A stretch of 64,000 nucleotides of DNA. It comes from Rhizobium sp. NFR03 (GTDB lineage Bacteria; Pseudomonadota; Alphaproteobacteria; Rhizobiales; Rhizobiaceae). Positions 22,382-47,168 of the stretch are shown piece by piece. Both the position numbers and the translations under genes were made by a program. The DNA is taken from assembly GCF_900111275.1 (NCBI RefSeq), contig NZ_FOGR01000001.1, positions 868,001 through 932,000 on the forward strand, given 5' to 3'. Below the pieces are notes generated by a model. It searched no databases and was not told the DNA's origin. It was given only the letters and a program-made list of their open reading frames with translations. How positions within the stretch are numbered: the first letter of the stretch is position 1; every line of letters begins with the position of its first letter.

Positions 22382-22517
22382 GAAGGCGCTTCCCGTTGCT
22401 TTGAACGCTCTCTATAGGGTGCCGGCAATCCAACAGGCAACATCGCGAGCCAGCCCCACGCAAAAGTCATGCGATGAGGCCCTGTCGGACGCAAAACCCT
22501 GTGCTACCTTGGATCGC

Positions 22518-25278: not shown

Positions 25279-26619
25279 ATGACCCAGACGCAGCAGGTTT
25301 CCACCCATCTGCTCGATCGCGTGTCCCTGTGGCTCAAGCAGACGGCGCTGAACGGCGCTTCGCTTGAAACGCTGGTAACGGGCTTCTGCGAGCGGCTTGC
25401 CGCCGCTGGTGTGCCGCTTTCCAGGGTCCACCTCAGCTTTGCCATGCTCCATCCGCTTTATGACGCGCTCGGCTTTACCTGGCAGCGCGGCAAAGGCGTC
25501 ACGGTCGAGGGCTTTCGGGCCGGACAGAGCGAAACGGATGCGGAGCGTTTTCTGCGCAGCCCCTATTACTACCTCTACTCCCACGATCTCGACCACCTGC
25601 GACGCCGCATCACGCCGGAAACGCCGATCGAATTCCCGATTTTCGAGGAACTGAAGCGCGACGGCGCGACCGACTATTTCGCATTCGTCCAGTCCTTCAG
25701 CGAAAGCCATGGGCAGGGAATGGTCGGCTCCTGGACCACGGACGCGCCGGAAGGCTTCTCCGACCAGCTGATCGAGGCGATGCTGCGTCTTCAAAGCAGT
25801 CTGGCCGTTGCCGCCAAGATGGCCGTGCTCGGCAAGCTCGCCGATAATATGCTCACCACCTATCTCGGCGAGAACGCCGGCAAGCGCGTGCTCTCCGGCC
25901 AGATCCGGCGGGGCGATGGAGAGACCATCCGCGCCGTGCTCGTCATGGCCGACATGCGCCAGTCCACCGTCCTTGCCGAGCGCGAAGGCCGGCAGGCCTA
26001 TATCGACACGCTCAATCAGTTCTTCGATGCCATCGCGAGCCCCTTCAATCGCGGCGGCGGCGAGATTCTGAGTTTCCTCGGCGACGGCTTCCTTGCCGTC
26101 TATCCCTGCGGGCGCCACCGCGAGCCGTCGCAGGCAGCAGCCCTTGCGGCCATGGAAGCCGTGCGGCAGGCCACTGCCCGCATGGCCGACCTTAACCGCG
26201 AACGCCGCGAAAACGGCCTCAGCGATATCGGCTACGGAATCGGCCTGCACATCGGCAATGTCATGTTCGGCAATGTCGGCCTGCGCGACCGCCTGACCTT
26301 CTCGGCCTTCGGCACCGCCGTCAACGAGGTCTCCCGACTGCAGGGCCTGACCAAGAAGCACTCGACCCACATCGTCGCCAGCCAGGCCTTCACCGCCTAT
26401 GCCGGTGGCGAGTGGGAAACGCTCGGCGAGGAAAAGCTGCGTGGCGTGCGCCAGAAACTCACGGTGCTGGTGCCGAGCGAAAAGCTCCTGAAAATCGATC
26501 AGGCGGAAGCCATCCGCCATCGCACACAGGAGAGCAGCTCGGAGGCCGAGCAGGTCATGCTTCTGTATCGGAACCGTAATACGCCCCAGCGCGACATCTG
26601 GAACAAACTCCTCCAGTAG
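25279..26619 (+). CDS. Class III adenylate/guanylate cyclase domain protein
   Basis: A 446-residue protein: an N-terminal region of about 190 residues of the kind seen in rhizobial soluble cyclases, then a class III cyclase domain (about 210-400). Metal ligands are D225 (MADMRQST) and D269 (FLGDGFLAVYP); transition-state residues N349 and R353 are present in GTAVNEVSRL. The position before the second metal loop, usually a purine-selecting Lys, is S265, so substrate preference is uncertain. GGGAAG precedes the ATG. It is encoded immediately before the peptide-ABC and glycosyltransferase cluster, which ends in a cyclic-nucleotide-binding protein. Confidence 0.88.
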   Translation: MTQTQQVSTHLLDRVSLWLKQTALNGASLETLVTGFCERLAAAGVPLSRVHLSFAMLHPLYDALGFTWQRGKGVTVEGFRAGQSETDAERFLRSPYYYLYSHDLDHLRRRITPETPIEFPIFEELKRDGATDYFAFVQSFSESHGQGMVGSWTTDAPEGFSDQLIEAMLRLQSSLAVAAKMAVLGKLADNMLTTYLGENAGKRVLSGQIRRGDGETIRAVLVMADMRQSTVLAEREGRQAYIDTLNQFFDAIASPFNRGGGEILSFLGDGFLAVYPCGRHREPSQAAALAAMEAVRQATARMADLNRERRENGLSDIGYGIGLHIGNVMFGNVGLRDRLTFSAFGTAVNEVSRLQGLTKKHSTHIVASQAFTAYAGGEWETLGEEKLRGVRQKLTVLVPSEKLLKIDQAEAIRHRTQESSSEAEQVMLLYRNRNTPQRDIWNKLLQ

Positions 26620-26818
26620 AAATTATATCTCCAGCGGGGAAATAATTTCAAAAAAACGATACACGACGACGCTAGACCCGCAGCCGACGCTGGGAAGGCG
26701 TATTGTGGGCTCTGCATTGCGGTCATGGACAGGCCGAAATGCCTACGATAGTCTTTCCCTCAAAGCTCAGGCGCAAAGCCAGCTACCATCCGCACCGGAT
26801 GGAGAGAATAAGTGGGGA

Positions 26819-28762
26819 ATGGCAGGCATGACATCAGGCGGAGACCTGTTGCGGATCGAGGACCTGAGCGTTTCTTTCGCCATGTTCGGTGGCCAGATCG
26901 ATGCGGTTCGAAAGGCCAGCCTTCGCGTCCTGCCAGGCAAGGTCACGGCACTCGTGGGCGAGTCCGGTTCCGGGAAGTCGGTGATCAGTCAGGCCATCAT
27001 GGGCATTCTGCCGAAATCGGCACGGATCGCCGGCAAGATCCTTTTCAAGGATGAAACCGCACCCGGCGGCGTCGTCGATCTTGCGGCCCTTGCGCCCGAA
27101 GGTGCCGACATGCGCGCATTCCGCGGAAACCGGATCGGCATGATCTTCCAGGAACCCATGACATCGCTGTCGCCGCTTCACACGATTGGCGACCAGATCA
27201 GCGAAAGCCTGCGCATCCATCGCAACGTCGACAAGCCGGGGCAGCGTGAACAGACCGAGGAGATGCTGCGTCTCGTCGGCTTTCCGGATCCCAAGCGCGC
27301 CTTCGGCATGTATCCCTTCGAACTCTCCGGCGGCATGCGCCAGCGCGCGATGATCGCCATGGCGCTGATCTGCAAGCCGTCGCTCCTGATTGCCGACGAG
27401 CCGACGACGGCGCTCGACGTCACGATCCAGGCGCAGATCCTGCAATTGCTGAAGGATCTGCAATCGACCTTCAACATGGCCGTGCTGCTCATCACCCACG
27501 ATCTCGGCATCGTTGCCAATATGGCTGACGAGGTCGTGGTGATCTATCATGGCGAGATCATGGAGGCCGGTTCGGTCGAGGACATCTTCCGCGATCCGTC
27601 GCATCCCTACCTCAAGGGGCTGATGGCCGCCGTGCCGCATTTCAACATGAAGCCGGGCGACCGCTTGAAGGCGCTGCGCGAAGTTCCGGTGAATGTCGAA
27701 AGCCTGATCGTGCGGCGCAAGGGCGAAGCCGCACCCGCGCGCCCGCTGCCCCGGGTGGAGGACATGCTTCCGGCGCCGGGGGAAGACGTGCTTCTTTCCG
27801 TTCGACATGTCGGCAAGACGTTTTCCAGCCGCAAAGCCGGTTGGTGGAAAAAGGGCGAGGCCAGCCAGCATCGCGCCGTAGACGATGTCAGCTTCGACAT
27901 CCATCGTGGCGAATGTCTCGGGCTCGTTGGCGAAAGCGGCTGCGGCAAGACCACGCTCAGCAAGATCCTGATGCGGGCGCTCTCACCCGATACCGGCTCG
28001 ATCATGTTGAACTCCGCGGATGGCCCGATCGACATCCGAGAGGCTCATGGCAAGTCTCTGGACAGGCTGCGCACGCGCATGCAGATGATCTTCCAGGACC
28101 CTGTCTCTTCGCTCTCGCCACGCATGACGGTTCAGAATATTCTGAGCGAACCGCTCGAAATTCACCGGCGCGGGGATCCGAAGAGCCGGCAGCAGACCGT
28201 CAAGGCCCTGCTGAAGGCCATCGGCCTGAGCGAGCGGCACATGAACCGCTATCCTCACAGCTTTTCGGGCGGGCAGCGCCAGCGCATCGGGATCGCTCGG
28301 GCTTTGGCACTCGGGCCCGAACTTCTGATCTGCGACGAGCCGGTCTCCGCACTCGACGTGTCCGTGCAGGCGCAGATCCTCAACCTGCTCAAGGACCTGC
28401 AGACGGAGTTGGGCCTCACCTACCTCTTCATCTCTCACAATCTCGCCGTCGTCGATTACATGGCCGACCGCATCGCTGTCATGTGCGCCGGGCGGATCGT
28501 CGAGCTTGCGCCGCGTGAGCAGCTGATGCGCTCGCCGGTACACCCTTACACCAAGGCGCTGCTCGCCGCCGTGCCCTTCCCCGACCTCGACCGGCCGCTC
28601 GACTTTGCAGCGCTCAGTGCCGGTGGGGCCTCAGACAAGAAGCGGTGGAACGCTGCCTTCCGGCCCGAAGAGAGCGAAGCGGGCCTCGCGCCTGCCGATC
28701 TCGGCAATGGTCACTGGGTGCTGGCGAGCCGGAATGCCGACGTGAAGGAGCTTCAGCCGTGA
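26819..28762 (+). CDS. Peptide/oligopeptide ABC transporter, fused double ATP-binding protein
   Basis: A 647-residue fusion of DppD-like and DppF-like ATPases, as in YejF. Half one has Walker A GESGSGKS, signature LSGGMRQRAMIA and Walker B LLIADEPTTALD. Half two has GESGCGKTT, FSGGQRQRIGIA and LLICDEPVSALD. Both halves end in the oligopeptide-binding C-terminal motif (DPSHPYLKGL and SPVHPYTKALL). All catalytic residues look intact. ATGs at 26819 and 26828 are both possible; neither has an ideal ribosome-binding site. The stop overlaps the GTG of the binding-protein gene. The 199 bases upstream show no gene. Confidence 0.9.
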   Translation: MAGMTSGGDLLRIEDLSVSFAMFGGQIDAVRKASLRVLPGKVTALVGESGSGKSVISQAIMGILPKSARIAGKILFKDETAPGGVVDLAALAPEGADMRAFRGNRIGMIFQEPMTSLSPLHTIGDQISESLRIHRNVDKPGQREQTEEMLRLVGFPDPKRAFGMYPFELSGGMRQRAMIAMALICKPSLLIADEPTTALDVTIQAQILQLLKDLQSTFNMAVLLITHDLGIVANMADEVVVIYHGEIMEAGSVEDIFRDPSHPYLKGLMAAVPHFNMKPGDRLKALREVPVNVESLIVRRKGEAAPARPLPRVEDMLPAPGEDVLLSVRHVGKTFSSRKAGWWKKGEASQHRAVDDVSFDIHRGECLGLVGESGCGKTTLSKILMRALSPDTGSIMLNSADGPIDIREAHGKSLDRLRTRMQMIFQDPVSSLSPRMTVQNILSEPLEIHRRGDPKSRQQTVKALLKAIGLSERHMNRYPHSFSGGQRQRIGIARALALGPELLICDEPVSALDVSVQAQILNLLKDLQTELGLTYLFISHNLAVVDYMADRIAVMCAGRIVELAPREQLMRSPVHPYTKALLAAVPFPDLDRPLDFAALSAGGASDKKRWNAAFRPEESEAGLAPADLGNGHWVLASRNADVKELQP

Positions 28763-30681
28763 TCAAACGCCGCACCACGCTCGGCCTCCTCGCGTCCGCC
28801 ATCGCCCTGCCCCGTCTGATGCTGCCGCGCGACGTCATGGCAGCGGGCACGGAGCCCGAGATCCTTCTTGAAAAGATAGCGGCAGGCACCATGCCGCCCA
28901 TGGCCGAGCGGGTTCCGAAGACGCCCCGCGTCGTCAATCTCGCTGCCATGGGCCGCGCGCCGGGAAGCTATGGCAGCTCCATCCGCATCCTGATCGGCAG
29001 CCAGAAGGACATCCGCGTGATGTTCATCAACGGCTATGCCCGTCTGGTCGGCTACGACGAGAAACTGAATTTCCAGCCGGATATTCTGGAGGCCTGCGAC
29101 GTCGAAGGGGATAGGATCTTCACCTTCCATATTCGCGAGGGCCACCGCTGGTCGGACGGAAGCCCGCTAACCTCGGAAGACTTCCGCTATACCTGGGAAG
29201 ACGTGGTCCTCAACGAGGACCTGCGCAAGGGCGGCGTGCAGCAGGAGCTTCTGGCTGAGGGAAAGCCGCCCCGGTTCGAGGTTCTGGACGAGCGCACCGT
29301 GCGATACAGCTGGGACGCGCCCAACCCCGATTTCCTGCCGAACCTTGCGGCGGCACTGCCGCTGATCCTGCTGTTACCGGCCGCTTACATGAAGCAGTTC
29401 CACAAGACGTACCAGACCGAGGAACAGCTGAAGACCTTCATGAAGAAGTACCGGGTCAAGAAGTGGGTGGATCTGCACATCAAGATGTCGCGCCAGAACC
29501 GGCCCGACAATCCGGACCTGCCGACCCTCGACCCGTGGCAGAACACGACGGCATCGCCCGCCGAGCAGTTCATCTTCGACCGCAATCCGTTCTTCCACCG
29601 CGTGGACGAAAACGGGATGCAGCTTCCCTATATCGACCGCGTCGTGCTCAACGTCTCGACACCCGGCATCATCGCGGCAAAGACAGGCGGCGGGGAAGCC
29701 GACCTGCAGGCGCAGAACATCGACTTCACCGACTATGCCTTCATCAAGGATTCCGAAAAGCGGTATCCGGTGAAGGTCAAGCTGTGGAAGCGCACGCAGG
29801 GGTCACGGGTGGCCTTGCTGCCGAACCTCAATTACGGCGATCCCGTCTGGCAGGCCCTGCTGCGCGATGTCCGCGTTCGCCGCGCCCTGTCGCTGGCCAT
29901 AGACCGGCGCGAGATCAACATGGTCGCCTTCTACGGCCTCGGCAAGGAAAGCGCGGATACCGTGCTGCCGGAAAGCCCGCTCTACAAGCCCGAATATGCC
30001 GCCGCCTGGTCCCAGCATGACACCGAGCAGGCTAACCGTCTGCTGGACGAGGCGGGACTGACCCATCGGAACGAGGACGGCATGCGCCTTCTGCCGGATG
30101 GCCGTCTTGCGCAGATCGTGGTGGAATCCGCCGGCGAGAGTTCGCTGGAAACAGATGTTCTCGAACTTGTCACCGATCACTGGGCGAAGATCGGCATCCC
30201 CCTCTTCATCAAGACCTCCCAGCGGGAAGTCTTTCGAAACCGCACCATGGGCGGCGAGATCATGATGTCCATGTGGCTCGGGCTCGACAACGGCGTGCCG
30301 ACGGCCGACATGAACCCCGGTCAGCTGGCACCGAGCAGCGACGTCCAGCTGCAATGGCCGGTCTGGGGCATGCACTATCTTTCGCTCGGGCAGTTCGGTC
30401 ATGCGCCGGAGCTTCCCGAGGCGCAGAAGCTTGTCGATCTCCTGAGAGAGTGGCGGCGCACAGCGGATAATGCCGGCCGCACGCGGATCTGGCACGAGAT
30501 GCTGTCGATCTACACGGATCAGGTCTATTCCATCGGCATGGTGAACGCCACGCTCCAGCCGATCCTTCATACGTCGCGCATGCAGAACGTTCCGGAACAC
30601 GGCCTTTACGGCTTCGATCCGACCTGCTTCTTCGGGGTCTACATGCCGGATACGTTCTGGCTCGGCGACAAGGTGAGCTGA
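28759..30681 (+). CDS. Peptide-type ABC transporter substrate-binding protein (family 5)
   Basis: A 640-residue extracellular solute-binding protein of the DppA/OppA family. The N-terminus MIKRRTTLGLLASAIALPRL contains a twin-arginine pattern, suggesting export by Tat as a folded protein. SBP_bac_5 features are WSDGSPLTSEDFRYTWEDV and VRRALSLAIDRREIN. It is 80-100 residues longer than classical DppA and resembles the long group used for unusual peptides or glycoconjugates. GTG is chosen as start because AAGGAG lies eight bases before it and it overlaps the ATPase stop (GTGA). Confidence 0.9.
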   Translation: MIKRRTTLGLLASAIALPRLMLPRDVMAAGTEPEILLEKIAAGTMPPMAERVPKTPRVVNLAAMGRAPGSYGSSIRILIGSQKDIRVMFINGYARLVGYDEKLNFQPDILEACDVEGDRIFTFHIREGHRWSDGSPLTSEDFRYTWEDVVLNEDLRKGGVQQELLAEGKPPRFEVLDERTVRYSWDAPNPDFLPNLAAALPLILLLPAAYMKQFHKTYQTEEQLKTFMKKYRVKKWVDLHIKMSRQNRPDNPDLPTLDPWQNTTASPAEQFIFDRNPFFHRVDENGMQLPYIDRVVLNVSTPGIIAAKTGGGEADLQAQNIDFTDYAFIKDSEKRYPVKVKLWKRTQGSRVALLPNLNYGDPVWQALLRDVRVRRALSLAIDRREINMVAFYGLGKESADTVLPESPLYKPEYAAAWSQHDTEQANRLLDEAGLTHRNEDGMRLLPDGRLAQIVVESAGESSLETDVLELVTDHWAKIGIPLFIKTSQREVFRNRTMGGEIMMSMWLGLDNGVPTADMNPGQLAPSSDVQLQWPVWGMHYLSLGQFGHAPELPEAQKLVDLLREWRRTADNAGRTRIWHEMLSIYTDQVYSIGMVNATLQPILHTSRMQNVPEHGLYGFDPTCFFGVYMPDTFWLGDKVS

Positions 30682-30684
30682 TCG

Positions 30685-31683
30685 ATGCTGCGATACATTC
30701 TCTGGCGTGTCAGCGCCATGATCCCGACGCTCGTCATTATTTCCGCGCTCGTCTTCACCATCATCGAGCTTCCCCCGGGCGATTACTTCGAGAGCTACAT
30801 CTCGGAGATGCGCGCCCAGGGCGAAGGCGTCGATATGGCGGAAATCGAGGCGCTGCGGGCCGAATACGGCTTCGACAAGCCGCCGGTGATGCGCTACTTC
30901 TACTGGGTCGCAGGCATGCTACAGGGCGATTTCGGTTATTCGTTCGAATACCAGCTGCCGGTCGCCGACGTCGTGGGCGATCGCCTCTGGCTGACCGTGC
31001 TCGTCTCCTTCGTCACCATCCTTTTCACATGGCTCATCGCCTTCCCGATTGGCATCTACTCGGCCACGCATCAGTACAGCTGGGGTGATTACGGGTTGAC
31101 CTTCCTCGGCCTGCTCGGCCTCGCCATTCCCAATTTCATGTTCGCGCTGATCCTGATGTACTTCGCCAATATGTGGTTCGGAACGTCCATCGGGCATTTG
31201 ATGGACCAGAAATATCTGTCGCAGCCCATGAGCTGGGACAAGTTTCTGTCGATCCTCGAGCATCTCTGGATCCCCGTCATCATCATCGGCACAGCCGGAA
31301 CCGCCGGCATGATCCGCCGCCTGCGCGCCAATCTGCTCGATGAACTCCAGAAACAATATGTGGTGACGGCGAAAGCGAAGGGCCTTCATCCCTTGCGCGC
31401 ACTGGTAAAGTACCCGCTCCGCATGGCCCTGAACTTCTTCATCGCCGACATCGGCTCGATCCTGCCGGCCATCATCTCCGGTGCGGAAATCACGGCCATC
31501 GTGCTCTCGCTCGAAACCACCGGCCCGATGCTCATCAAGGCATTGCAAAGCCAGGACATGTATCTCGCCGGTTCGTTCCTGATGTTCCTCGCCTTCCTCA
31601 CCGTCATCGGCGTGCTCGTCTCGGACATCGCGCTGGCGCTGCTCGATCCGCGCATCCGGCTCCAGGGGGGCAGCACGAAGTGA
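30685..31683 (+). CDS. Peptide-type ABC transporter permease (DppB-like)
   Basis: A 332-residue inner-membrane permease with the type-I fold of binding-protein-dependent transport (BPD) systems. The N-terminus MLRYILWRVSAMIPTLVIISALVF is typical of DppB/OppB. The EAA-like coupling loop is YVVTAKAKGLHPLRALVKYPLR, and about six membrane segments are visible. A loop of about 50 residues after the first helix (SYISEMRAQGEGVDMAEIEALRAEYG) is the periplasmic domain usual in this family. It starts three bases after the binding-protein stop and overlaps the next permease by 4 bases. Confidence 0.9.
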   Translation: MLRYILWRVSAMIPTLVIISALVFTIIELPPGDYFESYISEMRAQGEGVDMAEIEALRAEYGFDKPPVMRYFYWVAGMLQGDFGYSFEYQLPVADVVGDRLWLTVLVSFVTILFTWLIAFPIGIYSATHQYSWGDYGLTFLGLLGLAIPNFMFALILMYFANMWFGTSIGHLMDQKYLSQPMSWDKFLSILEHLWIPVIIIGTAGTAGMIRRLRANLLDELQKQYVVTAKAKGLHPLRALVKYPLRMALNFFIADIGSILPAIISGAEITAIVLSLETTGPMLIKALQSQDMYLAGSFLMFLAFLTVIGVLVSDIALALLDPRIRLQGGSTK

Positions 31684-32897
31684 CATCAACGCATCCGCCG
31701 TCCACGACGTCCTCCAATACGCCTCCCGCCTGCCTGCCCGCATCCGGCCAGCCCCTGACGCACTTCGTATCCACAGCGCCCTTCGATCCCATGGCCGTGG
31801 AAACCATGAGCGAGGAGCAGAAGCACGTCTATGAGGCATCCCAGCTTCGATTGATGTGGTGGAAGTTCAAGCGGCACCGGGTCGCCCTGATCTCGCTCGT
31901 CTTCCTCGTGCTGCTCTATGCGATGATCACGGTCGTCGAGTTCCTGGCTCCCTACAATCTGCACACGCGCAACGTGGATTTCATCCATGCGCCGCCGCAA
32001 CAGGTGCATCTGTTCGATGACGGTCAGTTCGTTGGACCGTTCGTCTATGGCCGCACGATGAACCTGGATATGGACACGCTGCGCCGCGTCTATACGGAAG
32101 ATCCCGAGCGCATTGAAAAGCTGCGCTTCTTCTGCAGCGGCGACGCTTACAATTTCTGGGGTCTCGTTCCCGCCTCGCTCCATCTCGTCTGCCCCGCCCA
32201 GGGCGGTGAGTTCTTTATGCTCGGCAGCGATCGGCTCGGTCGCGACGTGCTGTCGCGCATTCTCTACGGCGCGCGAATTTCGCTCACCATCGGCCTGCTC
32301 GGCGTAACGATGAGCTTCATCCTCGGTATCGTTATCGGTGGTCTCGCCGGCTATAAGGGCGGTGTCTTCGACCTTATCGTCCAGCGCGTCATCGAGGTGC
32401 TTCAGTCGATTCCGAGCATTCCGCTGTGGATGGCGCTTGCGGCCATCATGCCGGTGACGTGGAGCCCCCTCGTCATCTATCTCGGCATCACCGCCATCCT
32501 CGGCCTGCTCGACTGGACCGGCCTTGCCCGCGCGGTGCGCTCCAAGCTCCTCGCGCTGCGCGAGGAGGACTATGTGCTCGCAGCCCAGCTGATGGGCGCA
32601 CGGACCAGCCGGATCATCGGCCGCCACCTCGTTCCCGGCTTCATGTCGCACCTGATTGCCAGCGCGACCATGTCGATCCCGGCAATGATTCTCGGCGAAA
32701 CCGCCTTGAGTTTCCTCGGTCTTGGTCTACGTCCACCGATCACCAGCTGGGGCATTCTCCTCACGGAAGCGCGCAGCGTCAGTACCATCGCTTTTTATCC
32801 ATGGTTGCTCTACCCAACCATCCCGGTCATTCTCGTCATCCTGGCCTTTAACTTTCTGGGCGATGGACTTAGAGATGCGGCAGACCCGTACAAGTGA
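31680..32897 (+). CDS. Peptide-type ABC transporter permease (DppC-like)
   Basis: A 405-residue permease. A Pro/Ser/Thr-rich cytoplasmic N-terminus of about 50 residues leads to WWKFKRHRVALISLVFLVLLYA, the first membrane helix of the OppC N-terminal domain. The core has LGSDRLGRDVLSRILYGARISL and the coupling loop EEDYVLAAQLMGARTSRIIGRHLVP. A periplasmic insert of about 100 residues (containing FFCSGDAYNFWGLVP) makes it longer than DppC and close to YejE-type permeases. It starts with GTG overlapping the upstream stop. A 45-base gap separates it from the first glycosyltransferase, so read-through is likely. Confidence 0.9.
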   Translation: MTSTHPPSTTSSNTPPACLPASGQPLTHFVSTAPFDPMAVETMSEEQKHVYEASQLRLMWWKFKRHRVALISLVFLVLLYAMITVVEFLAPYNLHTRNVDFIHAPPQQVHLFDDGQFVGPFVYGRTMNLDMDTLRRVYTEDPERIEKLRFFCSGDAYNFWGLVPASLHLVCPAQGGEFFMLGSDRLGRDVLSRILYGARISLTIGLLGVTMSFILGIVIGGLAGYKGGVFDLIVQRVIEVLQSIPSIPLWMALAAIMPVTWSPLVIYLGITAILGLLDWTGLARAVRSKLLALREEDYVLAAQLMGARTSRIIGRHLVPGFMSHLIASATMSIPAMILGETALSFLGLGLRPPITSWGILLTEARSVSTIAFYPWLLYPTIPVILVILAFNFLGDGLRDAADPYK

Positions 32898-32942
32898 GTA
32901 TTCCATGGTGATGAAGCCTGCCCTGTGCATGGAGCCGCGCCG

Positions 32943-34151
32943 ATGACGCGTCGCATCGAGAATGCCCGCATCCTCATGTACAGCCACGATACGTTCGGTC
33001 TCGGACACCTCAGGCGGTGCCGGGCGATCGCACATGCGCTCGTGGAGGACTATCGCGGCCTGCAGGTCCTGATCATCTCGGGCGCCACCATCGCTGGCGC
33101 CTATGATTACCGGGCCCGCGTGGATTTCGTGAAGATCCCGAGCGTCATCAAGCTGCGCAACGGCGAATACACCTCCATGGACCGGCATATCGATCTGAAC
33201 GAGACGCTGAAAATGCGCCGCTCGATCATCCGGCACACCGCGGAGACCTTCAAGCCCGACATCTTTATCGTCGACAAGGAGCCGATGGGGCTTCGCGGCG
33301 AGGTGGAAGACACGCTCGGCTATCTCAAGCATCAGGGGACGACGCTGGTGCTCGGCCTGCGCGAGGTCATGGATGCACCGCATCTGCTCGACGCCGAATG
33401 GAAGCGCAACGACGTGATGCGCAAGATCGGCCAGTTCTACGACACGGTCTGGGTCTACGGCCCGCCGGATTTCTACGACCCGCTGGTCGGTCTCGACGTC
33501 CCGGCGCAGGTCCGCGCCCGTATGGACTTCGTCGGTTTCCTTCAGCGCAGCGTCTCGCTCGATGTCAGCTCGGAGCACAAGCCGAAAGGCGACTATATCC
33601 TCATCACCACCGGCGGCGGCGGCGACGGCTCCGACCTCATCCACGACGTGGTGGATGCCTACCGCGCAGACCCGACGTTGACGCACCCCTCCTTTGTCGT
33701 GCTCGGCCCCTACATGCCGGCCAAGCAGCGCCACAAGCTGCTATCGAAATGCGCGCTGACCCCGCACCTGACGGTGATCGAGTTCGACAACCGCATGGAA
33801 GAGCTGATCGCCAATGCGAGCGGCGTCGTCGCCATGGGCGGTTACAACACCTATTGCGAAATCCTCTCCTTCGACAAACCAGCCTTGATCGTCCCGCGCG
33901 TCGTCCCGCGCGAGGAACAGTTGATCCGCGCCCGCCGCGCCAGTGAACTCGGGCTCATCGATATGCTGCTGCCGGAGGAAGCCGCCGACCCCAGGCGGCT
34001 GGCCGCTGCCCTCCATGCCCTGCCCCAGCGCGCACCGCCTTCCCATCATGCCAGCAACATGCATCTGGATGGCCTGAGCAATATTTCGCGCATCGTCGGG
34101 AACATGCTAGACGGGCGGGACCGCGACCATCTGAGCGTCGTCAAGGCCTGA
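32943..34151 (+). CDS. MurG-like glycosyltransferase (COG4671 type)
   Basis: A 402-residue predicted GT-B glycosyltransferase. The N-terminal lobe opens MYSHDTFGLGHLRRCRAIAHAL, whose Gly-His-loop is typical of the COG4671 and MurG-like group. The C-terminal lobe has the donor-binding stretch ILITTGGGGDG and the GT28-type SGVVAMGGYNTYCEILSFDKPALIVPRVVPREEQLIRA. No signal peptide or membrane span is present, so it acts in the cytoplasm. The ATG follows GGAG by eight bases. It is the first of three consecutive glycosyltransferase genes. Confidence 0.85.
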   Translation: MTRRIENARILMYSHDTFGLGHLRRCRAIAHALVEDYRGLQVLIISGATIAGAYDYRARVDFVKIPSVIKLRNGEYTSMDRHIDLNETLKMRRSIIRHTAETFKPDIFIVDKEPMGLRGEVEDTLGYLKHQGTTLVLGLREVMDAPHLLDAEWKRNDVMRKIGQFYDTVWVYGPPDFYDPLVGLDVPAQVRARMDFVGFLQRSVSLDVSSEHKPKGDYILITTGGGGDGSDLIHDVVDAYRADPTLTHPSFVVLGPYMPAKQRHKLLSKCALTPHLTVIEFDNRMEELIANASGVVAMGGYNTYCEILSFDKPALIVPRVVPREEQLIRARRASELGLIDMLLPEEAADPRRLAAALHALPQRAPPSHHASNMHLDGLSNISRIVGNMLDGRDRDHLSVVKA

Positions 34152-34157
34152 AACCTC

Positions 34158-35402
34158 ATGCAAAGCCGCAAGATCGTCGTCATTCTGAAGGGTTATCCGC
34201 GCCTGTCGGAAACCTTCATCGCCCAGGAACTGCTCGGTCTGGAACAGTCGGGGCTGGAGCTGTCGCTGATCTCGATGCGCCACCCGACCGACAAGAAGCG
34301 CCACCCCGTTCACGACGAGATCCGCGCGCCGGTTCTCTACCTCCCCGAATATCTGCATCAGGAGCCGCTCCGCGTGCTGCGCGGATTGTGGAAGGCCACC
34401 CGTCGTCCCGGTTTCCGCAAGGCCTTCGCCGCCTTCCGGCGCGATCTTGCCCGGGATATTTCGCGCAACAGGGTTCGCCGCTTCGGGCAGGCAGCCGTTC
34501 TCGCGGCGGAGTGGCCAGCGGGCGGCGATTGGCTGCACGCCCATTTCATCCACACGCCCGCTTCCGTCGCAGCCTATACCAGCCTCCTGACCGGCATCCC
34601 GTGGACATGCTCGGCACATGCCAAGGACATCTGGACCTCTCCCGACTGGGAGCTTGCCGACAAGCTTGCCACCAATCGCTGGACCGTGACCTGCACCGAA
34701 ACCGGGTTCCATCATCTGAGAACGCTTGCCGCAGACAAGACGACCGTGCATCTGAGCTATCACGGGCTCGACCTCGCGCGCTTCGCACCCTTTACGCAGG
34801 AGCGCCGCCGGCGCGACGGAAGCGATGCCACTGACCCCGTCGTCATCCTCAGCGTCGGTCGCGCCGTGGAAAAGAAGGGCTATGATCTTCTGCTAAAGGC
34901 GCTGGCGGACCTGCCTGCTGATCTGGCCTGGCGATTCGTCCATATCGGCGGCGGCACGCTCGCGAAGTCTCTGAAAGACATGGCGACCGGTCTCGGCATC
35001 GCGGATCGAATCGACTGGCTGGGCGCGATGGCGCAAGAGGACGTGCTTGCCCGCTACCGCACCTCCGACATCTTCGCGCTCGCCTGCCGCATCGGCGCGG
35101 ATGGCGACAGAGACGGTCTGCCGAACGTGATCGTGGAGGCTTCCAGCCAACGGCTCGTCTGCCTTTCCACCACGATCTCCGGCGTGCCCGAGCTTCTGTC
35201 CGACGGGGAGAACGGCCTGCTGGTTCCGCCCGAGGATCCGGAAGCGATCACAAAGGCTCTGGAGCGCGCCATTCGCGATCCCGATCTTCGCCAGCGACTC
35301 GGGGATGCCGCCGAACGGCGTGTCCGCCAGGATTTCGACTACCACACCAGCATCACCCAGCTTCGCAATCTCTTTGAAACCGAATGGCGGACAGCCGAAT
35401 GA
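34158..35402 (+). CDS. GT4-family glycosyltransferase
   Basis: A 414-residue retaining GT-B glycosyltransferase. The N-terminus reads IVVILKGYPRLSETFIAQELLGLE, as in colanic-acid and exopolysaccharide glycosyltransferases. The C-terminal donor domain has ILSVGRAVEKKGYDLLLKAL and the E-x7-E region GLPNVIVEASSQRLVCLSTTISGVPELL. It starts six bases after the previous glycosyltransferase and overlaps the next by 4 bases. The acceptor and donor sugars are unknown. Membrane association would be peripheral. Confidence 0.88.
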   Translation: MQSRKIVVILKGYPRLSETFIAQELLGLEQSGLELSLISMRHPTDKKRHPVHDEIRAPVLYLPEYLHQEPLRVLRGLWKATRRPGFRKAFAAFRRDLARDISRNRVRRFGQAAVLAAEWPAGGDWLHAHFIHTPASVAAYTSLLTGIPWTCSAHAKDIWTSPDWELADKLATNRWTVTCTETGFHHLRTLAADKTTVHLSYHGLDLARFAPFTQERRRRDGSDATDPVVILSVGRAVEKKGYDLLLKALADLPADLAWRFVHIGGGTLAKSLKDMATGLGIADRIDWLGAMAQEDVLARYRTSDIFALACRIGADGDRDGLPNVIVEASSQRLVCLSTTISGVPELLSDGENGLLVPPEDPEAITKALERAIRDPDLRQRLGDAAERRVRQDFDYHTSITQLRNLFETEWRTAE

Positions 35403-36544
35403 CCGATCCGGAAACGAAACGCGTTCTCTTCTACGTTCAGCATCTGCTCGGCATCGGCCATCTCACCCGCGCGAGCCGCATCGCCAACGCCCTCGCTGTC
35501 CGCGGTTTCGACGTGACCGTCGTGACCGGCGGCAAGCCCGTGTCCGGCTTTCCCGGCCCTGCCGTCCGCCATATCGCGCTGCCGCCCGTCGTATCGAGCG
35601 ATGAGGGCTTCTCCGCTTTGCAGGACATGGACGGCAACCCTGTCGATGACGCCTTCCGCGACATGCGCCGGGACAGGCTGCTCGCTATCCTCGACGAGAT
35701 CAGGCCGCACGCCATCCTCACGGAGGCCTTTCCGTTCGGCCGGCGTCAGATGCGCTTCGAGCTTCTCCCCTTCCTCGACGCCGCCCGCGCCATGCCCGAG
35801 CCGCCGAAGATCTTCGCCTCCGTGCGCGATATCCTTCAGAAGCGTCCGAAGCCGGAGCGAGACCGGGAGACGGTCGATTATATCGACCGCTATTTCGACC
35901 GCATCCTCATTCATGGCGATCCGACCTTCGCCCGGCTGGAAGAGACATTTCCCCATGCCGACGAGATCGCCGACAAAGTGGTCTATACCGGCCTCGTCGC
36001 CCCGCCGCAGCCAGACGCGCCGACAGACCGTTTCGAGGTCGTCGTCTCCGCCGGCGGCGGCGCTGTCGGCCGGCACGTGCTGCATGCGGTCGTCGGCGCG
36101 ACGGCCATCCTCCGGCCGGAAAAACCCTGGGCGCTGATAACCGGCCCCAACCTTGCTCAGGCCGACCACGACACGATCGTTGCCGGCGTCGTCGGTAACG
36201 TCGAGGTCTTCCGCTTTCGCCCGGACTTCGCGAGCCTTCTCTCCGGCGCAAGCCTCTCGGTGTCGCAGGCAGGCTACAACACGGTCTGCGACATTCTGCG
36301 CGCGCGCTGCCGGGCCATCGTCGTGCCGTTCACCACGGGCGGCGAGACCGAACAGGCAGCCCGCGCCGAACGTCTGGAACGCCTCGGCCTCGTAACAGCA
36401 CTCGACGATGCCGATCTTTCGGCGGAACGGGTGGCCATGGCCATTCGCGCCGGTCTCGATGCCCCCGCCTTCCCCGCAGGCGATCTTTCGATCGATCTCG
36501 AGGGCGCCGACCGGACGGCGGATATCCTCCGCGAGATGCTGTAG
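35399..36544 (+). CDS. MurG-like glycosyltransferase (COG4671 type), second copy
   Basis: A 381-residue GT-B protein related to the first glycosyltransferase of the cluster: FYVQHLLGIGHLTRASRIANAL at the N-terminus, VVVSAGGGAVGRHVL in the donor lobe and the GT28-type LSVSQAGYNTVCDILRARCRAIVVPF. The ATG overlaps the upstream stop (ATGA), which fixes the start. The two COG4671 proteins flanking a GT4 enzyme suggest an ordered assembly of a short glycan, but this is an inference. Confidence 0.85.
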   Translation: MTDPETKRVLFYVQHLLGIGHLTRASRIANALAVRGFDVTVVTGGKPVSGFPGPAVRHIALPPVVSSDEGFSALQDMDGNPVDDAFRDMRRDRLLAILDEIRPHAILTEAFPFGRRQMRFELLPFLDAARAMPEPPKIFASVRDILQKRPKPERDRETVDYIDRYFDRILIHGDPTFARLEETFPHADEIADKVVYTGLVAPPQPDAPTDRFEVVVSAGGGAVGRHVLHAVVGATAILRPEKPWALITGPNLAQADHDTIVAGVVGNVEVFRFRPDFASLLSGASLSVSQAGYNTVCDILRARCRAIVVPFTTGGETEQAARAERLERLGLVTALDDADLSAERVAMAIRAGLDAPAFPAGDLSIDLEGADRTADILREML

Positions 36545-36700: not shown

Positions 36701-39478
36701 ATGGAAATACGCCTTACCCGTTACATCTGGACCCACACGCGCAAGCAGCAGATGTGGATCCTTCTGGTCGTCGCCGTCTCGATGATCCCGTACTTCCTGT
36801 CGTTCGATCTGCCCAAGCAGATCGTCAACGGGCCGATACAGGGGAAGGGTTTCGAGCAACCGGGCGCGACCGAGCGGTTCTTCGACATCTCCTTCTCCCT
36901 GCCCTGGATCGGCAACGTCACGCTGTTCAACGGCATCGACCTGACGCGTATGGAAACGCTCTATGCGCTGAGCGTCGTCTTCCTCCTGCTCGTCATCATC
37001 AACGGTCTCTTCAAGCTCTACATCAATACCTACAAGGGGCGGCTCGGCGAGCGCCTGTTGCGCCGCATCCGTTTCGAACTCGTGGATCGCATCCTCCGGT
37101 TCCCGCCGACCCAGTTCAAGCGCATGAAGGGGGCGGAAGTCTCCTCCATGGTGAAGGACGAGGTGGAACCGCTCGGCGGCTTCACGGGCGATGCCTTCGT
37201 GTCGCCCGCTCTGCTCGGCGGGCAGGCGCTGACCGCGCTCGCCTTCATCTTCATGCAGAACATGTGGCTCGGCTTCATCGCCGCCTTCATGGTCGGCATT
37301 CAGGCAACGATCATTCCGCGCATGCGCCGCCGCCTTCTGGTGCTCGGCCGCGAACGCCAGATTACCGCGCGCGAGCTTGCGGGCCGCGTCAGCGAGATCG
37401 TGGACGGTATCAGCACCATCCACGCCTACGATACCTCGAACTACGAGCGCGCCGATGTGGCAGCGCGGCTGGGGCGGATCTACAAGATCCGCTACGATCT
37501 ATACCAGTGGAAGTTCATGGTGAAGTTCATCAACAACTTCCTCGCGCAGCTGACGCCTTTCCTGTTCTACTGCATCGGCGGTTACCTTGCCCTGCGCGGC
37601 CAGCTCGACATCGGTCAGCTCGTTGCGGTCATCAGCGCCTACAAGGACCTTCCGGGCCCCCTGAAGGAGCTGATCGACTGGGACCAGCTGCGTCAGGACG
37701 TGCAGGTGAAATATGTTCAGGTGGTCGAGCAGTTCACGGTCGATCCGCTGATCGATCCGAAGATCCAGGCCATCTCCGCCGTTGGCGCAATTGCAGCCGG
37801 CGCGGCCGTTGCCGGCGCTGCGGGAGCAGCCGGTGGCAAGGACGAGAACTGCGCTCCAGCCGGCCCCCTTGCAGCATCCGGCCTCATCCTTGCCGACGAC
37901 AGCGGTGCCCGCCTGCTGGAGCATGTCTCGGTCGAGATCAAGTCGGGCGAGAAGGTGGCGATCATCGGCGGCGCCGCCAGCGGTGGCGACGTTCTGGCCG
38001 AAGCCTTCGGCCGCCTCATCTGGCCGGAGGGCGGCAAGGTCTCGCTTGGCGGCGAAGACCTCCTTCACATGCCGGAATCCGTCGTCGGCCGCAGCATCAC
38101 CTATGCATCGTCCGATACATATTTCTTCTACGGCTCGCTGCGTGACAATCTTCTCTACGGCCTGAAGCACGCACCGCTGGCAGCAGCCACCTACGAGGGC
38201 AGCCTCGCCGCCCATCGCAAGTGGGAGGTGGTGGAAGCCAAGCTCGCCGGAAATCCCGACTATGATGTCAATAGCGACTGGATCGACTATATCGCTGCCG
38301 GCGCGACGCACGCCGAAGATCTCTTTCCTTCGATCCTTGCAGTGCTCGACACGGTGCAACTGTCGAAGGACATTCTCGACCTTGCACTCCGCACCAATAT
38401 CGACCCGGCGGACAGGCCGGACTTTGCGGCCAGCATCGTGGACATGCGCCAGGCCCTGCGCGAGGAGCTCGAAGAAGCCGGCCTCAACGGGCTGATCGCC
38501 TATTTCGAGCCCGGCGAATACAATATGGAAGCGACGGTCGGTGAGAACCTGCTGTTCGGCACGGCGACAGCCCCGAGCGTGGCCGGCCGCGCGATCGCCA
38601 AGAATCCCTATTTCCGCAAGGTCGTCTCGGAAACCGGCATCGATCGCGTGCTTTTCGACATGGGCTACCAGATCGCCGAAAACGCGGTGGAACTCTTCGC
38701 CGACCTGCCGCCGGACCATCCGTTCTTCCAGCAGCTGACCTTCATGACGGCCGACGACATCCCGGCCTACCAGTTGCTGCTGCAGAAATATGCCGGCAAG
38801 GGACTTGAGACGGCGACGGAGGACGATCGCTACCAGATCATCCGCCTGAGCTTCAACTATGTCGAGCCCCGCCACCGCTTCGGTCTTCTGACCGAAGACC
38901 TGATGGCGCAGATCGTCGAGGTCCGCCGTCAGTTCCACGAGAACATGCCGGAAGACCTCCAGCACGACATCGAGCGCTACGATCCGGAAAAATATCTCGC
39001 CTCCGCCAGCCTCATGGACAACGTGCTCTTCGGCCGCATCAGCCATAAGCACACGGACGGCTCGAAGCGTATCCGCGCCATCGTATCTTCCCTTTTGAAC
39101 TCGCAAGGCCTGATCGAGCAGGTGCTGGATATCGGCCTCGACTTCAATCTGGGTGCTGGCGGCAAGCGCCTGACGGCTGTCCAGCGTCAGAAGCTGAACC
39201 TTGCGCGCGCCATCATCCGCCGCTCGGACTACTACGTCTTCAACCGGCCGCTCCCGAGCCTCGATCACCGGCTTCAGGACGAAATCGTCCGCGACGTTAT
39301 GAAACTGCTGACCCGCAACGGCGCCAATCCGGCCATCATCTGGGTCCTGTCGAACAACGGACTGACGAAGCTGTTCGAACGCGTGCTCGTCTTTGATCGC
39401 GGCGCGCTCGTGGAGGATGACACGCACGCCAATCTGGTAAACAATGACGGTGTCTTTAAACAGTTGGTAACCTCGTGA
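36701..39478 (+). CDS. ABC exporter-like protein with degenerate nucleotide-binding domain and large insertion
   Basis: A 925-residue protein. Residues 1-340 are a normal type-I exporter membrane domain (GRLGERLLRRIRFELVDRILRF). An Ala/Gly-rich linker (357-380) follows. The nucleotide-binding domain starts near 388, but every catalytic motif is changed. Walker A is GGAASGGD (423-430, K to G at 429). The signature is LTAVQRQ (824-830) instead of LSGGQRQ. Walker B ends FNR (N848, R849) instead of DE. The H-loop is LSNN. About 330 extra residues lie between the Q-loop region and the signature. Within the domain the motif xx[LV]xx[DE?]NxL[FY]G appears three times (near 478, 611 and 769). ATP hydrolysis is very unlikely. 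It lies 156 bases after the glycosyltransferases. Confidence 0.85.
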   Translation: MEIRLTRYIWTHTRKQQMWILLVVAVSMIPYFLSFDLPKQIVNGPIQGKGFEQPGATERFFDISFSLPWIGNVTLFNGIDLTRMETLYALSVVFLLLVIINGLFKLYINTYKGRLGERLLRRIRFELVDRILRFPPTQFKRMKGAEVSSMVKDEVEPLGGFTGDAFVSPALLGGQALTALAFIFMQNMWLGFIAAFMVGIQATIIPRMRRRLLVLGRERQITARELAGRVSEIVDGISTIHAYDTSNYERADVAARLGRIYKIRYDLYQWKFMVKFINNFLAQLTPFLFYCIGGYLALRGQLDIGQLVAVISAYKDLPGPLKELIDWDQLRQDVQVKYVQVVEQFTVDPLIDPKIQAISAVGAIAAGAAVAGAAGAAGGKDENCAPAGPLAASGLILADDSGARLLEHVSVEIKSGEKVAIIGGAASGGDVLAEAFGRLIWPEGGKVSLGGEDLLHMPESVVGRSITYASSDTYFFYGSLRDNLLYGLKHAPLAAATYEGSLAAHRKWEVVEAKLAGNPDYDVNSDWIDYIAAGATHAEDLFPSILAVLDTVQLSKDILDLALRTNIDPADRPDFAASIVDMRQALREELEEAGLNGLIAYFEPGEYNMEATVGENLLFGTATAPSVAGRAIAKNPYFRKVVSETGIDRVLFDMGYQIAENAVELFADLPPDHPFFQQLTFMTADDIPAYQLLLQKYAGKGLETATEDDRYQIIRLSFNYVEPRHRFGLLTEDLMAQIVEVRRQFHENMPEDLQHDIERYDPEKYLASASLMDNVLFGRISHKHTDGSKRIRAIVSSLLNSQGLIEQVLDIGLDFNLGAGGKRLTAVQRQKLNLARAIIRRSDYYVFNRPLPSLDHRLQDEIVRDVMKLLTRNGANPAIIWVLSNNGLTKLFERVLVFDRGALVEDDTHANLVNNDGVFKQLVTS

Positions 39479-39568
39479 TAGTCGAAGGCACCAAAAGACG
39501 CACAGACACCGATGTATTGCCCGGAACGCACGGGCAGGCAGCGCCGAATATGGGGAGTTGACGAGCTG

Positions 39569-40030
39569 ATGTTGCTGAAGGACGAAGTACAAATGCTGCG
39601 GCGGGTGCCGCTCTTTTCCGGCGTGGAAGCGGGGAAGCTGAAGCTGCTGGCCTTCACCTCGGACCGCGTGAGCTACGGCGTCGGCGAAACGCTCTTCCAT
39701 CAGGGCGATGCCGGCGATGCAGCCTATGTCGTGCTGGATGGCAAGGCAGAGATCCTGGTCGAATCCTCGACCGGCCCGATCCGCGTAGCCGAAGTCGAGC
39801 GCAATTCGATCGTCGGCGAGATCGCCATCCTGTGTGACGTCTCGAGAACGGCAACCGTGAAGACGACCACTGCGGTCGAGGCCCTGCGCATCCGCAAGGA
39901 CCATTTCATCAAGCTCCTCACCGACTTTCCGGAAATCACCATCGAGATCATGCGTGTGCTTGCAGACCGCCTAAGCCACACGACGAGCGAATTGACGGAA
40001 GCCCGCAGCCGCGTGCGCGAACTCGAATAG
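39569..40030 (+). CDS. Single-domain cyclic nucleotide-binding protein
   Basis: A 153-residue protein made of one CNB domain: LRRVPLFSGVEAGKLKLLAF, the barrel GETLFHQGDAGDAAYVVLDGKAEILV, and the phosphate-binding cassette with GEIAILCDVSRTATV, which retains the Glu and Arg that grip the cyclic phosphate. The end is a charged helix (SELTEARSRVRELE) that could be a short coiled coil. No DNA-binding or enzymatic output is attached. ATG at 39569 follows GGGGAG; an earlier in-frame ATG would add 19 unrelated residues. It probably gates a partner, most simply the ABC-like protein 90 bases upstream. Confidence 0.85.
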   Translation: MLLKDEVQMLRRVPLFSGVEAGKLKLLAFTSDRVSYGVGETLFHQGDAGDAAYVVLDGKAEILVESSTGPIRVAEVERNSIVGEIAILCDVSRTATVKTTTAVEALRIRKDHFIKLLTDFPEITIEIMRVLADRLSHTTSELTEARSRVRELE

Positions 40031-41782: not shown

Positions 41783-41988
41783 GGCAAAGGCAACGGTTTT
41801 GAAAGCGGGATCAGATAGCGTGCCCTTGTCTGTGACACGAGAAGCGAGAAAAAGCGAATGCCTGTCTCGCTTCATGTGGACAGTTTGGATAACATGGCGA
41901 AAATACGGCCGGACGCAAGAAGCCGGCAGGGTCGATCCTGGCCCACCGATAGCAGAGGGACAGCGTCGGCAAGCCACCGAAAGGGGGC

Positions 41989-42840
41989 GTGTCGAAACTG
42001 AAGCAAAGTGTGAACGACAATCTGTTTCGCGTACGTTTCTGGGGCGTTCGGGGAAGCCTTCCGGTAGCGGGGGCCGAGTTCCAGCGCTATGGCGGCCGGA
42101 CCGTATGCATCGAGATGCAATGCGGCAACGAACGCCTGATCTTCGATGCAGGCTCGGGCCTGATGCCGGCTGGCGTCGCGCTCAAGGCCGAAGGCGTGTC
42201 CGCGTTCAACCTGTTCTTCACCCACTGTCACTACGACCACATCATCGGCCTGCCCTTTTTTCCGCCGCTCTACGACCACTCCGCCGACGTGACGCTCTGG
42301 TCCGGGCATCTTGCAGGGCGGATGTCGACGCGCCAGATGATCGGCGAGTTCATGCGGCCGCCATGGTTTCCGGTCGAGCCCGATATCTGCCGCGCGGCGC
42401 TGGATGCCCGCGACTTTCGCTCCGGCGATCTTCTCACGCCCGTCCGCGGCGTCGAAATTCGCACCGGCAGTCTCAACCATCCGGGCGGCGCCGTCGGTTA
42501 CCGCGTCGAATGGGGCGGGCGCGCCTGCGCCCTGATCACCGATACGGAACATCACCCCGGCACGCTCGACCCGACGGTGCTCGGCCTGATTGAGGGCTGC
42601 GATCTCTTCATCTACGACGCGATGTATGACGACGCCGAAATGGAACGGCATGTCGGCTACGGCCATTCCTCCTGGGAGCATGGCATCCGGCTCGCCAAAG
42701 CAGCCGGCGCAAAACGCGTCGCCTTCATGCACCACGCACCCTTCCGCACCGATGATGCGCTCGATGCGATCGAGAAACAGGCGAAGGGCCTCTTTAGCGG
42801 GGCATTTGCAGCATTCGACGGGCAGATCGTCGATCTCTGA
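41989..42840 (+). CDS. MBL-fold metallo-hydrolase
   Basis: A 283-residue metallo-beta-lactamase-fold protein. The metal motif HCHYDH (H79, H81, D83, H84) is intact, with later ligands in GSLNHPGG, ITDTEH and FMHHAPF. The N-terminus VRFWGVRGSLPVAG is typical of the cAMP-phosphodiesterase/RNase-Z-like subgroup often found with cyclic-nucleotide domains. It could hydrolyse a phosphodiester; the sequence does not say which. GTG is taken as start, with AAGGGGG just upstream. Divergent from the metallophosphoesterase. Confidence 0.85.
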   Translation: MSKLKQSVNDNLFRVRFWGVRGSLPVAGAEFQRYGGRTVCIEMQCGNERLIFDAGSGLMPAGVALKAEGVSAFNLFFTHCHYDHIIGLPFFPPLYDHSADVTLWSGHLAGRMSTRQMIGEFMRPPWFPVEPDICRAALDARDFRSGDLLTPVRGVEIRTGSLNHPGGAVGYRVEWGGRACALITDTEHHPGTLDPTVLGLIEGCDLFIYDAMYDDAEMERHVGYGHSSWEHGIRLAKAAGAKRVAFMHHAPFRTDDALDAIEKQAKGLFSGAFAAFDGQIVDL

Positions 42841-47144: not shown

Positions 47145-47168
47145 GGCCACGCTTCTCCGTGTTCTCCC

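Follow-up and report, generated by a model that had tools for sequence, protein, structure and literature searches.

An ABC-exporter-like protein family of Alphaproteobacteria with degenerate ATPase motifs and a cyclic-nucleotide-binding partner: a possible ATP-independent gate or flippase

Described exporters and the pseudo-ABC gene

ATP-binding cassette (ABC) exporters are the textbook ATP-driven pumps, and degenerate nucleotide-binding domains (NBDs) are known among them: TmrAB, TAP and CFTR have lost some of the catalytic residues and keep one working composite site. Here we analyze a gene of Rhizobium sp. NFR03, called pseudo-ABC below, whose product has the transmembrane domain (TMD) of an exporter and an NBD that is degenerate in every ATPase motif. 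If the protein is a homodimer, as we assume, both of its sites would be dead, unlike in TmrAB, TAP and CFTR, the first two of which are among its fold matches. We propose, with a probability of about 0.45, that it is a gate or flippase with an ABC fold that works without ATP, that it probably handles a surface glycan, and that a cyclic nucleotide controls it by way of a cyclic-nucleotide-binding (CNB) protein. The gene lies in a stretch of 64,000 nucleotides (contig NZ_FOGR01000001.1, positions 868,001 to 932,000), which we call the window and whose numbering we use. A widespread and conserved lineage in which every member examined lacks a complete ATPase set, while its membrane part is the most strictly conserved, would show that the fold can be reused as a signal-controlled gate or scaffold.

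MsbA/ABCB-type (type IV) exporters share with pseudo-ABC the ABC_membrane TMD and the NBD fold; pseudo-ABC differs in scoring below the MsbA cut-off, in lacking the six catalytic residues and in carrying an insertion of about 290-300 residues. CRP/FNR-type proteins likewise have a CNB domain with an intact phosphate-binding cassette, but the CNB protein of the window is 172 amino acids (aa) long and has no DNA-binding domain by Pfam. The accessible excerpts of a report on HetC of Nostoc PCC 7120 (PMC10986499) describe an exporter whose function depends on a CNB domain, which requires the ATPase residue Glu970 and which has a C39 peptidase. Set against those excerpts, pseudo-ABC is similar in that a CNB is attached to or paired with the exporter (209/212 evaluable relatives and the window), and different in that its ATPase is dead, no C39 domain was found by Pfam and the CNB is separate or C-terminal.

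Excerpts of two further reports (PMC3687685, PMC12239276) concern Sinorhizobium meliloti MsbA2 (SMb21191), which resembles pseudo-ABC in being an exporter gene, on pSymB, linked to glycosyltransferase genes. SMb20813 is termed an msbA homologue in the available part of another report (PMC10945364) and may be the S. meliloti counterpart of pseudo-ABC. Identity with MsbA2 was rejected by position, since the counterpart lies at 841,727-844,435 in S. meliloti 2011 and the MsbA2 operon gene SMb21188 at 938,297. Both degenerate NBDs and an exporter that depends on a CNB (HetC) have precedents; in the open-licence literature we found no report of a dead NBD combined with a CNB, of this family, or of the threefold repeat described below.

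An exporter fold without its catalytic residues

The gene and its membrane part are located as follows.

36701..39478, + strand: pseudo-ABC exporter, 925 aa (TMD, degenerate NBD and threefold-repeat insertion)
36701..37705, + strand: TMD, residues 1-335, conserved above the NBD across the family

The open reading frame (ORF) starts with ATG and is uninterrupted over 925 codons, as an earlier note on this DNA had read it. An exporter TMD was recognized by Pfam (ABC_membrane, PF00664, residues 80-312, E = 3.5e-22) and an ABC-type NBD more weakly (ABC_tran, PF00005, residues 406-503, E = 5.2e-7); NBD elements are also visible in the predicted structure. The AlphaFold2 model of the whole protein, like all our models a single chain, had a mean predicted local distance difference test (pLDDT) of 82.6 and a predicted template-modelling score of 0.76, and Foldseek matched it with probability 1.00 to P-gp, TmrAB, PCAT1 and MsbA, TAP also being among the fold matches. 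No NCBIfam model reached its cut-off among the 25 of 101 matches listed: the best, MsbA TIGR02203, scored 144.3 bits against a cut-off of 602, which does not make the protein an equivalog, and the MsbA model NF008381 scored 78 bits against 867. An 801-aa antisense ORF (37499-39904, - strand) overlaps the gene and is probably a G+C-rich shadow ORF.

To place the motif residues, the protein was aligned both to relatives and to this genome's canonical exporters.

37967..37990, + strand: degenerate Walker A, residues 423-430, GGAASGGD (Lys replaced by Gly429, Ser/Thr by Asp430)
38096..38170, + strand: degenerate Q-loop (Gln replaced by Ser471) and repeat copy 1 (LRDNLLYG at 480)
39170..39184, + strand: degenerate signature LTAVQ, residues 824-828
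39230..39250, + strand: degenerate Walker B, residues 844-850, YYVFNRP (Asp-Glu replaced by Asn848-Arg849)
39335..39355, + strand: degenerate H-loop IIWVLSN, residues 879-885 (His replaced by Ser884)

The residues expected of an ATP-hydrolysing exporter are therefore missing throughout: the Walker A Lys and Ser/Thr, the Walker B Asp and Glu, the Q-loop Gln, the H-loop His and the LSGGQ sequence. The signature Gln828 and the D-loop Asp855 are retained. The earlier note had listed Gly for the Walker A Lys, LTAVQ for LSGGQ, Asn-Arg for the Walker B Asp-Glu and a missing H-loop His; the alignment bears out all four, at Gly429, 824-828, Asn848-Arg849 and Ser884, and adds two further losses, of the Q-loop Gln (Ser471) and of the Ser/Thr of the Mg2+ site (Asp430).

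Comparison with relatives strengthens the claim that every ATPase motif is lost. We scored six catalytic residues (K429, S/T430, Q471, D848, E849 and H884) in 230 rows, four of which are redundant (the window again and the truncated copies L114, L115 and L171), so that these scores were recounted on 226. None of the 226 non-redundant proteins has the full set; 123 keep none, 33 one, 31 two, 26 three, 12 four and a single protein five. That protein, L227, comes closest to an intact site and has lost only the Q-loop Gln. Intact Walker motifs in homologues, which the earlier note had named as evidence to the contrary, thus occur in part. Its question whether homologues always carry the same changes also has a divided answer, the replacements being conserved in rhizobia while distant relatives keep some of the residues. 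In 105 rhizobial rows Asn848 is found in 97%, Arg849 in 81% and a single letter at position 430 in 79%. The graded series from a nearly complete to a fully lost set makes the change directly testable.

On a tree of the TMD, the minimum numbers of changes were 19 for K429, 21 for E849 and 16 for H884, so loss or change of these residues has been recurrent. The tree (FastTree, TMD only) had 96 rows: 90 of the 230 after thinning to less than 62% identity, and six of ten outgroup ORFs, after removal of three that lie on the opposite strand and of one protein present twice; L187 and three outgroup rows sit on long branches.

The replacements follow a pattern. Position 430 is acidic in 195 of the 230 rows (the four redundant ones included here) and the Walker B Asp is Asn in 170; both occur together in 157, and where 430 is Ser/Thr, Asp is found at 848 in 10 of 16 rows. 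Judged from these alignments, a charge appears to have shifted from the Walker B to the Walker A motif across the family. Such a rebuilt site might bind ATP without hydrolysing it, as a structural or sensory ligand, and both pairings would fit. We think this rather improbable: the Walker A Lys is absent from all 106 rows of the first relative set, position 849 is mostly Arg, and the 430/848 pattern could equally reflect a salt bridge filling an empty site.

Distribution, selection and a possible independence of the membrane domain

A scan of genome contigs gave at least 581 candidate stretches confirmed by tblastn, of which the best 80 were kept. The family was found in 29 of 61 near genomes, the own genome included (single-sequence query, E 1e-60), in 132 of 385 genomes of the class (profile, E 1e-60) and in 27 of 398 genomes of the phylum (profile, E 1e-80), and is alphaproteobacterial. 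The insertion alone matched in 31 of the 398, all from the same class or nearer kin; this search, confined to the phylum, found none beyond Alphaproteobacteria. Among plasmid records 312 had a match, 262 of them with 80% or more of the query covered at a single place, and several below that coverage match the TMD only. In one far relative (L187:3473-6025), which carries the insertion, the TMD has diverged very strongly and no CNB lies within some 5 kb; other genomes of its group also match the insert.

The ratio of nonsynonymous to synonymous substitution rates (dN/dS) between the window and eight relatives was 0.01-0.31 wherever computable, for the TMD, the NBD lobes and the insertion (one value was saturated). 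By this sequence measure the gene is under purifying selection, which together with the conserved replacements agrees with the earlier note that it is maintained. The loss of all catalytic motifs could also suggest a decaying pseudogene or an annotation artefact. We reject that explanation on dN/dS and conservation, and regard it as having practically no chance of being right: the ORF is at least 870 aa long in all 109 relative loci L009-L117, and the substitutions and the partner gene are conserved. In the pSymB record of S. meliloti 1021 (L265, 21667-24434) the pseudo-ABC gene is split over two frames; in strain 2011 (L119, 19671-22437) it is open over 922 codons. This is either a strain difference or an error in one record.

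The membrane domain had been described as normal, which holds for its fold and not for its conservation relative to the NBD. Among five canonical exporters of this genome the NBD is the better conserved part (mean identity 0.51, against 0.16 for the TMD; higher in 10/10 pairs). Among 90 family representatives the mean identities are 0.50 for the TMD and 0.35 for the NBD, which is the higher in only 175 of 4005 pairs. The two sets are unlike in kind, five paralogues against 90 family members, and the sign is opposite: the TMD is conserved above the NBD, the reverse of the canonical exporters.

Some relatives have no NBD at all.

L175:5540-6781: TMD-only homologue
L176:5868-7094: TMD-only homologue
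L177:5531-6730: TMD-only homologue
L178:5501-6700: TMD-only homologue
L267:7797-9266: TMD-only homologue

The first four are 399-413 aa long and match the TMD only, at 31-35% identity; L267 is an annotated Phaeobacter protein of 489 aa, part of which matches the TMD only. A tblastn search (E 0.01) of these five loci over their full retrieved length found neither a family-type nor a canonical NBD. Unless an NBD is encoded elsewhere, this suggests that the TMD lineage can function without it. L175, L177 and L267 have copper genes (multicopper oxidase, CopB) around them, and the plasmid of L267 is typed as conjugative.

A threefold repeat inserted into the NBD

Between Q-loop and signature lies a large inserted module, which with part of the Q-loop segment holds three copies of a repeat.

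38159..39049, + strand: inserted repeat module, residues 487-783, own predicted fold (pLDDT 92.3)
38495..38566, + strand: repeat copy 2, strand-helix-strand, VGENLLFG at 613
38969..39040, + strand: repeat copy 3, strand-helix-strand, LMDNVLFG at 771

The distance from Q-loop to signature is 352 residues, compared with 55-60 in seven canonical exporter rows of the same genome (two pairs of which look like one protein each). An insertion had been seen before and put at about 330 residues; its presence stands, and its net size is nearer 290-300. Likewise, the recurrence of a motif at about 478, 611 and 769 proved to be a threefold repeat whose copies start some two residues later, at 480, 613 and 771. 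The pattern [DE]NxL[FY]G occurs three times in pseudo-ABC; in 20,000 shuffles its mean was 0.003 per protein, and one shuffle had two or more. Profiles built from the family alignment and compared with hhalign gave P values of 1.1e-7 (copies 1 and 2), 1.8e-7 (1 and 3) and 4.7e-15 (2 and 3). Non-overlapping unrelated blocks (three of the TMD and the N- and C-parts of the NBD) gave 0.005 or worse, and insertion sub-blocks containing repeat helices were intermediate (6e-5 to 4e-4). The repeat is therefore real.

The aligned copies cover the segment after the Q-loop and the helices following it, and thus two extra copies of a segment of the helical subdomain are present; each copy contains a strand-helix-strand unit in the whole-protein AlphaFold2 model. 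Residues 487-783 predicted alone reached the same pLDDT of 92.3 listed above. For this module the PDB yielded neither a fold match with an E value of 0.001 or below nor a sequence match, and a scan of 87 inserts against Pfam gave no family at a useful score, only scattered weak matches (among them one to MCM, E 0.059). A second NBD in the insertion is thus not supported. A misalignment hiding true motifs there, which the earlier note had considered, is likewise unsupported, no ATPase family having scored usefully in the 87 inserts.

A CNB protein encoded directly downstream

39512..40030, + strand: CNB protein, 172 aa, starting 33 bp past the stop codon of pseudo-ABC; phosphate-binding cassette VGEIAILCDVSRTATVK intact

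In this protein Pfam recognized nothing but cNMP_binding (E = 0.01), and hence no DNA-binding domain. Its cassette, GEIAILCDVSRTA, has the Glu and the Arg (the latter at position 112) that we take to be the ligand-binding residues. Among 225 non-redundant relatives, a CNB homologue is encoded directly downstream in 184, fused C-terminally in 13 and nearby in one. In 13 relatives the flank was too short to judge, and of 14 first scored as lacking a CNB a re-check found one in 11, which brings the relatives with a paired or fused CNB to 209 of the 212 that could be evaluated, in addition to the window. This pairing is far above chance, given that the own genome has four cNMP_binding matches over the cut-off in 5.4 Mb. 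One of these (G000:C15:880720-880977) is a second cNMP_binding protein in the window (12354-13109, - strand).

Pfam found the fused domain in five of eight proteins tested (L179, L191, L194, L186 and L116) and not in L193, L187 or the TMD-only L175. Named records with the fusion are those of Azospirillum lipoferum 4B and Ruegeria sp. THAF33, both without the Walker A Lys. In 185 CNB domains (a set without the 11 re-checked ones) the cassette Glu is conserved in 178, with Asp in five more, and the Arg in 182. The S. meliloti counterpart is labelled "Crp/Fnr family transcriptional regulator", a label that is probably wrong; CNB-only proteins annotated as transcriptional regulators would gain a likely non-transcriptional role.

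Next to the CNB gene lie genes for a calcineurin-like phosphoesterase (40034-41977, - strand) and a metallo-beta-lactamase (MBL)-fold hydrolase (41989-42837, + strand), the latter scoring 41 bits against the model for a cyclic nucleotide-degrading phosphodiesterase (NF041851; cut-off 400). Both could be nucleotide hydrolases.

Cyclase, importer and glycosyltransferase genes of the locus

Pseudo-ABC is the ninth gene of a co-directional run of ten: a cyclase, four Opp-type genes, three glycosyltransferases, pseudo-ABC and the CNB.

25279..26619, + strand: class III adenylate/guanylate cyclase, 446 aa, first gene of the run
26705..28762, + strand: peptide-type ABC importer ATPase (OppDF-like), recurrent neighbour
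28645..30681, + strand: OppA-like substrate-binding protein, recurrent neighbour (judging from the overlap, the true start is guessed to lie nearer 28759)
30685..31683, + strand: OppB-like permease
31680..32897, + strand: OppC-like permease
32925..34151, + strand: glycosyltransferase with family 28 C-domain, in 99/150 loci
34158..35402, + strand: glycosyltransferase group 1 (GT4-like), in 104/150 loci
35384..36544, + strand: second family-28-type glycosyltransferase, in 70/150 loci, 68 of these in L009-L118

Neighbours were counted in 150 loci of more than 7 kb, where the clusters most often found were the CNB (132), the GT4-like (104) and first family-28 (99) glycosyltransferases and OppDF (73), followed by the second family-28 glycosyltransferase (70), a second GT4 cluster (64), OppA (56) and OppC (50). 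Gene content and order in S. meliloti and Rhizobium etli are those of the window, except that S. meliloti carries two more genes: one for a polysaccharide lyase, which follows the cyclase, and one for a methyltransferase, which precedes the ABC gene on the opposite strand. The R. etli record gives the cyclase the name cyaAa and calls the genes at the first two glycosyltransferase positions redA and redB, names on which the open-licence literature yielded no informative paper.

Of 254 loci, 37 matched the cyclase profile, wherever in the flank the match lay and with S. meliloti counted twice. This count may be low: should the cyclase gene of other rhizobia be placed as in the window, about 11 kb upstream, a 10-kb flank would miss it. 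Pfam confirmed a cyclase in nine of ten proteins tested, as well as in L244, beside a fused form; their architectures are plain, Fer2-linked or CHASE2-linked. The tenth candidate, an L193 ORF (the weaker of two that overlap), has no cyclase by Pfam. The own genome has six PF00211 matches in 5.4 Mb. In the window cyclase the metal-binding Asp residues, the Asn and the Arg are present, roles that we presume, and Ser and Thr occupy what we take to be the purine-specifying positions, normally Lys and Asp.

The loci also bear on the idea that pseudo-ABC is the dead half of a heterodimeric exporter whose separately encoded active half hydrolyses ATP. Heterodimeric exporters such as TmrAB are among its best structural matches, and the signature Gln and D-loop Asp are mostly retained. 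No canonical exporter was found in the flanks of the 150 loci, however, and on this ground a nearby active partner was rejected; moreover, all six catalytic residues are gone in pseudo-ABC, whereas degenerate halves usually lose the residues of one site only, and both the TMD-only relatives and the inverted constraint speak against a dead half. We consider it improbable.

A possible mechanism and the evidence against it

The proposal of an ATP-independent gate or flippase builds on the motif loss with clade-conserved replacements, the repeat insertion, the pairing or fusion with a CNB and its intact cassette, the recurrent class III cyclase and glycosyltransferase genes and the TMD-only relatives, all of them shown by sequence. 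From these we infer the homodimer, the identity of the ligand, the docking site, the substrate and transport itself. Pseudo-ABC would work with the CNB protein encoded directly downstream and would let through, or flip across the membrane, a glycan or glycolipid that the neighbouring glycosyltransferases make. ATP would not be the power source. The former NBD and the repeat module would form a docking platform for the CNB, which would bind a cyclic nucleotide from the local cyclase and shift the TMD between states; the substrate would move down its own gradient or be driven by its synthesis. If so, rhizobial cyclic-nucleotide signalling would be linked to an uncharacterised surface-glycan locus. 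The earlier note had envisaged a non-hydrolytic gate, scaffold or flippase under another signal. That outline fits, with the CNB protein at 39512-40030, which it had left unlinked, as the likely signal input; the three roles are indistinguishable by sequence.

More tentatively, an entire ABC-fold family may have abandoned ATP to become a gate or flippase: control by ATP would have given way to control by the CNB, the helical subdomain would have been triplicated to receive the CNB, and the membrane part would have become independent of the NBD, as the TMD-only relatives would indicate. This wider scenario is possible, and we hold it with some doubt.

Several observations weigh against the proposed gate or flippase. 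The rows are phylogenetically non-independent, close species being over-represented. Some distant members retain the Walker A Lys (66/226), the Walker B Glu (63/226) or the His (35/226), and the wider family may therefore still bind ATP; an active partner half may also be encoded outside the flanks. The TMD-only relatives, in or near copper genes where checked, may do something else. Whole-chain Foldseek TM-scores are low (query-normalised 0.20-0.37 among the matches listed), as is expected from the insertion and from other conformations. L252, L254 and L187 have no CNB in reach, and among the fused CNBs the five most divergent lack Thr-Ala after the Arg, three of these five also having Asp for Glu. 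Ser and Thr at the purine-specifying positions make the product of the window cyclase uncertain, and it may not be cyclic AMP. According to the accessible excerpts, the N-terminal CNB of HetC binds ppGpp and not cyclic AMP (PMC10986499). As an analogy, HetC would thus be a precedent for the control of an exporter by a CNB and, as far as those excerpts go, also a warning, given its ppGpp ligand and its need for the ATPase.

The glycan part of the proposal is touched by four loci with a fused CNB (L186, L194, L244 and L251), in which no glycosyltransferase cluster was found over the 10.8-11.5 kb mapped. The same loci count against another explanation, that pseudo-ABC is a scaffold or receptor whose TMD transports nothing, serving instead to anchor the glycosyltransferases at the membrane, to assemble them there and to relay the cyclic-nucleotide signal to them. 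Such a role would suit the linkage of glycosyltransferase genes in many loci, a large and conserved repeat module that could be a protein-interaction surface, and an NBD whose catalysis is dispensable. It is nevertheless unlikely in our judgement, because no other part is as well conserved as the TMD, which has kept the exporter fold; conservation this strong is not expected of a mere anchor.

Other genes of the window

Shortly upstream of the cyclase gene lies a gene for a DUF3095 protein (22326-23675, + strand; E = 8.9e-134). The window also contains Ku and LigD end-joining genes (46353-49733).

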